Assembly (NCBI RefSeq): GCF_012027555.1
Contig: NZ_SNUQ01000002.1
Coordinates: 1 to 64,000, forward strand
Direction of reading: 5' to 3'
From: Thermococcus sp. CX2
GTDB lineage: Archaea; Methanobacteriota_B; Thermococci; Thermococcales; Thermococcaceae
DNA length: 64,000 bases
Shown one piece after another: positions 47,199-49,259 of this stretch. The translations under genes were made by a program, and so were the position numbers. The notes beneath the pieces were generated by a model. That model did no database searches. It was not told the DNA's origin and saw only the letters and a list, made by a program, of their open reading frames with translations. Within the stretch, counting starts at the first letter, position 1, and the number at the start of each line of letters is the position of its first letter.

Positions 47199-48404
47199 AT
47201 GGACAAACGGTGGAAATCGGTTCTGCTCGATACTCTCGTCATGACGGCTGGATTCGGAACGCTGAGCATGATGGCAGTTGCGAAGCCCGATGTTATGGCT
47301 CACTTCGGAATAGATGCTAATACCTACGAGTGGCAGCACATAGCTTATGTTTTCGGTCTTTTCATCGCTTTCCTCCTCGGTCATACTAAGATATATGAAG
47401 GCAGCTTCAAGAGGAGCGTTGCCATAGCCCTGAGCTGGGCCGCGATAACCCAAGCACTCATCCCCCTCGCACCGAACTGGTACGTTGTCGTCTTCTTGAG
47501 ATTTATCCAGGGTTTTGTCGTCACCCTTGTCCCCCTCTTCAGCACTCAGATAGCCCACTTCTTCGTCGCCGAGAGACCCTTTGCCAAGGGCATAATTCTC
47601 TCGGGCATCTTCTGGGGAGGAGTCTTTGGAAGCATGAGCGCCAAATACGCGGTTGAAGCCCTCGGCTGGAAGGGTGGTTTCTGGAGCACGGTTCTTATTA
47701 TGTACGCGGTTCTCGCCATCTGGTGGCTTCTCACTGAAGACTTTGAGATATCCCACAAGAGTGAGACAACCACCAAGGTCAACGTCTGGAAGATGAAGTT
47801 CACATGGGTGCTCGGTTTCACATTTTTCCCAGCACTGTGGGTCATATTCACCATCGTGGGTTTCTCAGCTTCCCTCGGTTACAACATGGGGTGGACTAAG
47901 GATCACGTGGCAACACTCAGCACGAGCCTCAACATATCCAAGGCCCTCTGGTCAATAGGCATGGGCTACATCGGCTACATGCTCTCAAGGAAGAACCCAA
48001 CCGCCAGGGGACTCTTCAAGGCCATCGTCCAGGTCATGATATTTTCCTATGCTGTCTCCTTCATAGGACTTGCCATCTACGCCAAGGCCATGCTCGACGG
48101 CAACTACACCCTAGCGCTCGCCTCTGTTGTCCTCATTGGGGCCCTCCAAGGAACTGGCCCGGCGTTCTGGACGAGCGCCCCGGCGACATATCCAAAGAGC
48201 ATCTTCCCGAAGGCCTCGTTCGCCCTCGGGCTAATCTCCAACTCGGCCAACGCGGTGGCACCGACCGTTACGGATATACTCGCAAGGCAGAGCACCGCAC
48301 TGGCCCTAGGGGAGCTGGCCTTAATGCCGCTCCTCGGAATCCTGACCCTTATAGCAGTCTCAAGAATGAAGCTCCCCGTGGAGGAGCTGGGCAATGCGGC
48401 CTAA
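47199..48404 (+). CDS. MFS transporter
   Basis: A 401-residue major facilitator protein with about 12 hydrophobic segments. The long loop after helix 6 (FEISHKSETTTKVNVWKMKF) divides the two halves, and GFVVTLVPLFSTQIAHFFVA and GALQGTGPAFWTSAPA are characteristic membrane loops. It lacks the usual GxxxDRxGRR motif A between helices 2 and 3. Substrate unknown. AGGGAGGAGAGATAGC precedes the ATG and the next gene overlaps by 11 bp. Confidence 0.85.
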   Translation: MDKRWKSVLLDTLVMTAGFGTLSMMAVAKPDVMAHFGIDANTYEWQHIAYVFGLFIAFLLGHTKIYEGSFKRSVAIALSWAAITQALIPLAPNWYVVVFLRFIQGFVVTLVPLFSTQIAHFFVAERPFAKGIILSGIFWGGVFGSMSAKYAVEALGWKGGFWSTVLIMYAVLAIWWLLTEDFEISHKSETTTKVNVWKMKFTWVLGFTFFPALWVIFTIVGFSASLGYNMGWTKDHVATLSTSLNISKALWSIGMGYIGYMLSRKNPTARGLFKAIVQVMIFSYAVSFIGLAIYAKAMLDGNYTLALASVVLIGALQGTGPAFWTSAPATYPKSIFPKASFALGLISNSANAVAPTVTDILARQSTALALGELALMPLLGILTLIAVSRMKLPVEELGNAA

Positions 48405-48720
48405 AACGGTTGTCTTTTCCTTCTTTTTAATTCTCTCGGCGTATTTCTACGGCCTGGCCGCTATAAGCGTTGGAGAGAAATACACATTCTGGGGCTTTAT
48501 GATAATCGCAACAATTCATCTGGCCTTTTCCTACGGTATCAAAAAAGGCCATGAGCTCATCGTGGACGTCTCCCCGCACATAGCGCTTCTCGACTTCCTC
48601 TTTGGCCTCCTGTGGGTTCTCATCGGTCTGTCAGTTCCAGCGGTAAGCTTAACGCTGCTCTCAGCACTGGCGCTTTTCATACTGCTGGATGAGGAGGTCA
48701 GAATGGAGCTGAAGAGCTGA
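48394..48720 (+). CDS. Small four-helix membrane protein
   Basis: A 108-residue hydrophobic protein with about four helices: VVFSFFLILSAYFYGLAAIS, FWGFMIIATIHLAFSYGI, LLDFLFGLLWVLIGLSVPAV and LTLLSALALFILLDEEV. It does not match a family I recognise. It overlaps the MFS gene by 11 nt, so the two are probably translated together. The stop TGA is the first part of the repeat that opens the hairpin-rich region. Confidence 0.7.
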   Translation: MRPKTVVFSFFLILSAYFYGLAAISVGEKYTFWGFMIIATIHLAFSYGIKKGHELIVDVSPHIALLDFLFGLLWVLIGLSVPAVSLTLLSALALFILLDEEVRMELKS

Positions 48721-49181
48721 ACAACACTTCTGCCTGTGCATCCTGAGACTGTCGTCTCAGTCCCCCGGCTCCGGCGAATGAAGGTTGATCAAAGAGTTAT
48801 CTTCTCAAACTCGCGAGTTTAACGTGAGCTTGACTTAAAGCTAGCGAATGAAGAGTCCTGCGAAGTTCCTTCAGCTTCGCTGGAGGGGCTAAGACAACAG
48901 TCTCAGAACGCGAAGGTGAACAACATTTGCCTTCGCATGTTGAGACTTTCGTCTCAACACGTCGGGAAGAGTCTGCTTTTCTTTTTGACGCCCTTCGGGT
49001 GTCATACCGTGAGAGACTCATCGAAAATGGCCAGTTAACAAAGAAATCCGCTTAAACTCTGTCACTTGAGCAAGTGCACTCTCAAAAGCCAGTATTTCAA
49101 AAGCAGTCAGAAGTTTTCCACCATCCGTCAGGATGCTTGAGCGTTAGCGAAAGCGGCGCTTTGCGAAGCAAAGGGCTGTAA
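48718..49181. repeat. Hairpin-rich noncoding island with a 44-bp imperfect direct repeat
   Basis: Two related copies begin TGAACAACA (48718 and 48917) and continue through a TGCCT..GCAT core into a CTGAGAC/GTCTCAG hairpin (48743-48760) and a TGTTGAGAC-TTTC-GTCTCAACA hairpin (48938-48959). Other inverted repeats are AAACTCGCGAGTTT (48807-48820), CCTTCAGC-TTC-GCTGGAGG (48868-48886), GACGCCC-TTC-GGGTGTC (48987-49003), CACTTG-AG-CAAGTG (49063-49076), CATCC-GTCA-GGATG (49122-49135) and CTTTGC-GAA-GCAAAG (49159-49173). GCGAATGAAG occurs twice (about 48774 and 48844). No credible ORF is present. The origin is unknown. Confidence 0.75.
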
Positions 49182-49259
49182 TGGTGCGGTGGCCGGGATT
49201 TGAACCCGGGTCACCGGCTTGGAAGGCCGGTGTCCTAGACCAGGCTAGACTACCACCGC
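49182..49259 (-). tRNA. tRNA-Gly (TCC anticodon)
   Basis: Minus strand reading starts GCGGTGGTAGTCTAGCCTGG and folds into the cloverleaf. The anticodon stem-loop is CCGGC-CTTCCAA-GCCGG, anticodon TCC. The T-arm is GGGTTCAAATCCC, the acceptor stem pairs GCGGTGG with CCACCGC, the discriminator is A, and CCA is encoded. No intron. It follows tRNA-Phe by 12 nt and is probably cotranscribed with it. Confidence 0.97.

Follow-up and report, generated by a model that had tools for sequence, protein, structure and literature searches.

Noncoding island behind tRNA-Gly(TCC)

Positions 48718-49181 of the window (the whole 64,000-nucleotide stretch of Thermococcus DNA analyzed) are bounded by the stop codon of an open reading frame (ORF) for a 108-amino-acid membrane protein (48394-48720) and by the 3′ end of a tRNA-Gly(TCC) gene. 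Since this gene is on the minus strand and reads leftwards, the island is its 3′ flank. The sole ORF that overlaps the island encodes 74 amino acids and is a chance ORF. The boundaries and the ORF list thus bear out the coordinates, the noncoding status, and the position beside a tRNA given in a preliminary description of this DNA.

The island folds to a lower energy than dinucleotide shuffles of its sequence on both strands (z = −5.7 for the plus strand and −4.8 for the minus strand), and none of 100 shuffles folded as low. Three strictly perfect hairpins (stem of at least 6 bp, loop of 3 to 8) were observed versus 0.78 expected, and 21 of 500 shuffles contained three or more; folding energy is the stronger statistic for structure in the island. 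The richness in hairpins is therefore real, but the proposed count of at least eight inverted repeats requires imperfect stems, because the strictly perfect ones number only three. Similarly, the 44-bp direct repeat exists with its 199-bp spacing but is imperfect: gaps and mismatches interrupt the alignment of its copies, which has an ungapped core of 15 bp with 87% identity. The reported contrast in GC content with AT-rich gaps is mild (48.5% in the island versus 53.7% in the window).

In blastn searches of the same genome, strong partial matches of the island were found behind tRNA-Gln, tRNA-Trp, tRNA-Lys, and tRNA-Val. Pieces of the island in relatives lie behind tRNA-Glu-like, Gln, Thr, Leu, Arg, Ser-Cys, and other tRNA genes, in a constant relation to the tRNA. 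The island is a composite, worn, and partly degraded copy of a dispersed repeat family.

Anatomy of the repeat unit

A unit of this family is ∼265 to 300 bp long and comprises a terminal hairpin with a fixed tail, two arms, a 49-nt central double stem, and often an inverted terminal hairpin. When the 3′ flanks of 45 tRNAs of the window's genome (G000; 1.8 Mb) were listed, two types of terminal hairpin were apparent directly after CCA: type I, CARCCCTTTGC-loop-GCAAAGCGYTGRCGGAAA, and type II, RAAACTTCGC-loop-GCGAAGTTTSATCAAGG, also written CAAACTTCGC..GCGAAGTTTGATCAAGG. A strict pattern places one or the other behind 17 G000 tRNAs, with a few more recognized by eye; many tRNAs have no unit at all. 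The tails next to the hairpins are GCGGAAA or GATCAAGG. Units read by eye carry the inverted hairpin and (G)ATCAA tails at both ends, and the ends may be of type I or II; units exchange end modules.

The central domain, ∼100 to 135 bp from the tRNA, consists of an outer stem that leads through an asymmetric internal loop to a 7-bp inner stem with a triloop. First central domains lie mostly 97 to 107 or 128 to 135 bp from the tRNA, and second ones mostly at 352 to 395 bp; further units follow the first with a period of ∼265 to 300 bp, that is, they are stacked in tandem behind the tRNA. Relative to the tRNA, the central domain of first units is in sense orientation in 29 cases and in antisense orientation in 15. 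In several copies, e.g., those flanking tRNA-Cys, Gln, Ile, and Trp, the arms are partly complementary over ∼200 nt. At four loci with convergent tRNA pairs (L138, L146, L051, and L017), one unit array lies between both 3′ ends. A dispersed GC-rich module of ∼100 nt, GGGGGTGTGG..AGCCCCCC..ACAGG, was seen beside units at L154 (1284-1375), at L182 (∼1290-1400), and in the 3′ flank of tRNA-Cys in the relative G064; it has an ACA-like stretch at its end and no match in Rfam.

In the window copy, the proximal half carries a type I end and a 33-nt insert, and the central domain comes next. In place of the usual distal half, it has other hairpin modules and an old block kept in three relatives (Table 1).

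Table 1. Features of the tRNA-Gly(TCC) 3′ flank in window coordinates
Feature	Position	Strand	Basis or remark
tRNA-Gly(TCC)	49182..49259	−	Gene whose 3′ end precedes the element
Terminal hairpin type I, CAGCCCTTTGC-TTC-GCAAAGCGC..., 3 nt past the tRNA CCA	49156..49178	−	Sequence
33-nt two-hairpin insert in terminal module (module D)	49123..49155	−	Comparison of copies
tRNA-proximal arm of unit	49020..49117	−	Together with central domain, 83% identical to copy behind tRNA-Gln
Central domain: outer 6-bp stem, asymmetric internal loop, inner 7-bp stem, triloop	48969..49019	−	R1 model
9-bp perfect hairpin TGTTGAGAC-TTTC-GTCTCAACA (module B)	48938..48959		Recurs in other genomes beside tRNAs
Hairpin GCGAAGG...CCTTCGC	48910..48936		Sequence
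Distal-end remnant of older type II unit: ...GGTTGATCAAAGAG..., palindrome AAACTCGCGAGTTT	48783..48856		By eye, against intact ends
Older block A	48721..48940		Kept at same locus in G064, G068, and G063
Direct repeat, copy 1	48718..48762	+	Self-alignment
Direct repeat, copy 2, 199 bp downstream	48917..48961	+	Self-alignment

The type I hairpin of the window also occurs directly behind tRNA-Trp, Val, Arg, Ile, and Pro in G000 and behind tRNAs in other Thermococcus genomes. The copies behind tRNA-Trp and tRNA-Val(TAC) do not have the 33-nt insert; the one behind tRNA-Lys and the distal one behind tRNA-Gln do. Block A is retained at the same locus with 80% identity in G064, 72% in G068, and 69 to 85% in G063.

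Genomic positions and turnover

To locate units, we used R1, a covariance model of the 49-nt central domain that was built from tRNA flanks and searched against whole genomes; the central domain of the window copy matches it with 33.9 bits (E value of 7.9e-4). Of the 20 R1 sites in G000, 16 follow a tRNA at a distance of at most 900 bp and none precedes one. Among 57 sites in three relatives, 43 (10/14, 17/21, and 16/22) are downstream and again none upstream; one G064 site outside the downstream count, at 888004, lies behind an intron-bearing tRNA-Trp that the tRNA search had missed. Since the 900-bp zones downstream of the 45 tRNAs make up ∼2% of the G000 genome, R1 sites are greatly enriched behind tRNAs.

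An independent scan that used only the type II hairpin repeats this result: 48 of 61 genomes were matched versus 0 for a control pattern, and 17 of the 30 loci taken lie 3 to 16 bp past a tRNA, all on the tRNA strand; an 18th locus (L306), identified by eye, follows a tRNA-like sequence that ARAGORN missed. A type I scan of ∼85,000 species returned 17 loci, of which nine follow a tRNA of the same strand at a distance of 5 to 7 bp.

The targets are mainly tRNAs and some C/D-box small RNAs (sRNAs). Sites other than tRNAs include the 3′ ends of sR36 (Rfam RF01124) and of a second C/D-like gene in L150, and by eye the L312 unit also follows a C/D-like gene; some copies in relatives are located between protein genes. 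That all copies away from tRNAs lie behind C/D-box genes was considered and rejected, because at least one G000 site, L154, is behind a cbf5-like protein gene. The idea also fails at L159, where the C/D-like sequence has no D box in the G064 copy, and at L204, L210, L217, L291, and L315, where the neighbor is a conserved promoter-like stretch. This stretch, TATTTAAAAGGCTTTCGAAC...TTTTTTGGG...TTTTTTGCAA, abuts units in several genomes (at these five loci and at L182) and may be an undescribed short transcription unit. Another conserved stretch beside a unit, GGGTTGCGATGAC..CCCCCAGGGGG..GCCCCC, is found in three genomes (L159, ∼1255-1335; L197; L313); it is C/D-like only in part and is a possible small RNA.

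Significant R1 matches were found in 56 of 61 Thermococcus genomes, with a few in three other genera of Thermococcaceae. Occupancy varies between species. The tRNA-Val(TAC) gene is followed by 313 bp in G000 versus 12 bp in G068 before the flanks continue with 93.4% identity over 1188 bp, and tRNA-Pro(CGG) has a whole extra proximal unit in G000 compared to G063. At orthologous tRNAs, the type of end hairpin (I or II) also differs between species: behind tRNA-Arg(TCG), where the flanks of G063 and G068 are 75% identical overall, the two by eye have their central and distal parts in common, while the proximal end is of type I in one and of type II in the other. Units are gained and lost between species, and the presence/absence pattern could in part reflect deletion rather than insertion; by eye, no target-site duplication was recognized at tRNA-Val(TAC) or in other pairs.

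Pairing and origin of the units

A covariance analysis, as proposed earlier, found that the stems covary strongly. In the R1 stems, 97.4% of cells are paired, and 85 double-change cells were counted versus 22.7 after shuffling, a count inflated by the choice of seeds partly for good pairing. A constraint acting on RNA should tolerate G·U and avoid A·C on the transcribed strand. Under symmetric scoring, after filtering for redundancy at 85% identity, the tRNA strand of the central domains (71 tRNA-adjacent domains of 90) has 21 G·T versus 25 A·C mismatches. The counts are 16 and 19 for the best hairpins close to tRNA ends, some of which do not belong to the family. When strands are assigned by the element rather than by the tRNA, the counts become 17 and 30, an apparent tendency toward the opposite strand. 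A first impression that wobbles favor the strand opposite the tRNA was dropped, as the systematic tRNA-strand count shows no bias. Because G·T and A·C are about equally common on the tRNA strand, pairing appears to be at the DNA level rather than in a tRNA-sense RNA fold; DNA-level pairing via a cruciform, a hairpin on either strand, or template-switch correction between arms would give such counts.

On balance, and with modest confidence, we read the island as a copy of a nonautonomous, palindromic, MITE/BIME-like element of Thermococcaceae that either inserts directly behind the 3′ ends of stable small-RNA genes or is kept only there. Of the three options raised earlier (a structured RNA, a protein-binding array, or the remains of an element), the dispersed family and its variable occupancy at tRNA 3′ ends support the last. 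The companion idea of integration at a tRNA site fares less well in its plain form: a distant blastn search of plasmid and phage collections gave no match to the island, and units follow many tRNAs and some C/D-box sRNAs, so this is not a simple plasmid or virus integration scar. Units might be moved in trans by an enzyme that acts on folded or cruciform DNA, and their targets may be chosen through DNA exposed behind heavily transcribed, untranslated genes. Strong transcription without translation is the trait common to tRNA and C/D-box genes; opened DNA or stalled replication forks behind them could offer a single-stranded or cruciform substrate to palindrome-processing enzymes. A Y1 transposase was rejected as the mover because PF01797, the only transposase family searched, has no member in G000 or in 46 of the 61 genomes. 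More tentatively, the units may represent a new archaeal mobile palindrome, shared beyond Thermococcus, that targets stable RNA genes at their 3′ ends via the RNA gene or its transcription.

The main rival is function as terminator or insulator. Palindromes could be terminators, insulators, or 3′-processing signals of strongly transcribed stable RNA genes, spread among tRNA loci by gene conversion, and the strict 3′ position at tRNA and C/D-box genes, the fixed spacing, and the compensatory changes in stems would all follow. We consider this unlikely: many tRNAs have no unit and orthologous tRNAs differ, G·U is not preferred on the tRNA strand, and a run of at least five T residues within the first 40 nt is found in none of 60 unit-bearing flanks, compared to 5% of 117 other flanks. 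Moreover, secondary structure is reportedly not a general trigger of termination behind protein-coding genes in P. furiosus (PMC10746257).

A structured noncoding RNA family, derived from the tRNA precursor or the opposite strand, would account for the low folding energies on both strands (z scores above) and for the covarying two-stem core with its compositionally asymmetric internal loop. The covariation had seemed to favor this possibility, which was raised in the preliminary description, but the mismatch counts weaken it, as A·C is as common as G·U on the tRNA strand. The central domain is also found in both orientations, neither the island nor the units match Rfam at gathering or permissive thresholds (only tRNAs, known RNAs, and weak chance matches were returned), and the part of the T. 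kodakarensis primary transcriptome text covered here makes no mention of such RNAs (PMC4247193). We regard an RNA family as improbable. Least probable is that shared flanks reached different tRNA loci when an integrase inverted or integrated DNA in tRNA genes, the units having no mobility of their own. In favor, tRNA pairs serve as breakpoints of Thermococcus inversions (PMC5495485), and at the G064 tRNA-Gly locus a truncated tRNA is followed by foreign sequence, with intact tRNAs ∼18 kb away, but units also lie behind C/D-box genes, gain and loss at tRNA-Val(TAC) and tRNA-Pro(CGG) are local with flanks kept, and plasmids and phages gave no match.

At that G064 locus (L073, 2393-2441; G064:C1, ∼314.7 kb), the 3′ half of a tRNA-Gly is followed by foreign sequence, with ∼18 kb to the tRNAs at 333 kb; this has the appearance of an element integrated into the counterpart of the window's tRNA-Gly.

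The family resembles REP/BIME and MITE elements in form, without the defining tags and transposase of REP/BIME. Like bacterial REP/BIME, it has short extragenic palindromes with a conserved tail, inverted pairs around a body, and many copies per genus. It differs in that GCGGAAA or GATCAAGG stands beside the palindrome where REP/BIME have GTAG or CGTC (PMC3733652), G000 has no transposase of the Y1/RAYT type (PF01797), the location is behind stable RNA genes, and the body is itself a palindrome-like unit of 265 to 300 bp. MITEs are likewise short, noncoding, and multicopy, with presence/absence polymorphism and with inverted ends to which the paired hairpins of the units may correspond, but for the Thermococcus units neither a parent transposase (PF01797 searched) nor a clear target-site duplication was found, and the targets are 3′ ends of tRNA and sRNA genes. 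To our knowledge, a preference for stable RNA genes is a feature of neither class. Palindromic elements derived from IS200/IS605 also have a hairpin at each end, and their DNA-fold process would fit the missing strand bias; their ends are asymmetric rather than inverted, and G000 has no Y1 transposase. The integrative elements of Thermococcales (pTN3, pT26-2, and TKV type) share tRNA genes as targets, whereas the units are far smaller, have no integrase and no att duplication of the tRNA, and occur at many different tRNAs and sRNAs.

We found no description of these repeats in the open-access literature searched. The family would be a natural archaeal case of stable-RNA-gene targeting, with an outcome comparable to that of the tRNA-targeted retroelements of yeast and Dictyostelium. 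It would also mean that the sequence 3′ of many archaeal tRNAs is not to be taken for an ordinary trailer. Thermococcus genomes have been described as poor in insertion sequences yet highly rearranged, with breakpoints at tRNA genes (PMC5495485, PMC2718504); palindromes behind tRNAs across the genus would be an overlooked class of repeats and a source of inverted homology at these breakpoints.

Two loci suggest that the end hairpins are distributed more widely than Thermococcaceae. In the archaeon isolate SMBSF43 (L212, 2457-2612), not labeled Thermococcus, a type II hairpin lies directly behind tRNA-Pro, and a type I hairpin is located inside the predicted intron of the tRNA-Leu next door. 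In a Thermoplasmatota metagenome-assembled genome, a type I hairpin occurs in a tRNA-like sequence (L214, 943-970).
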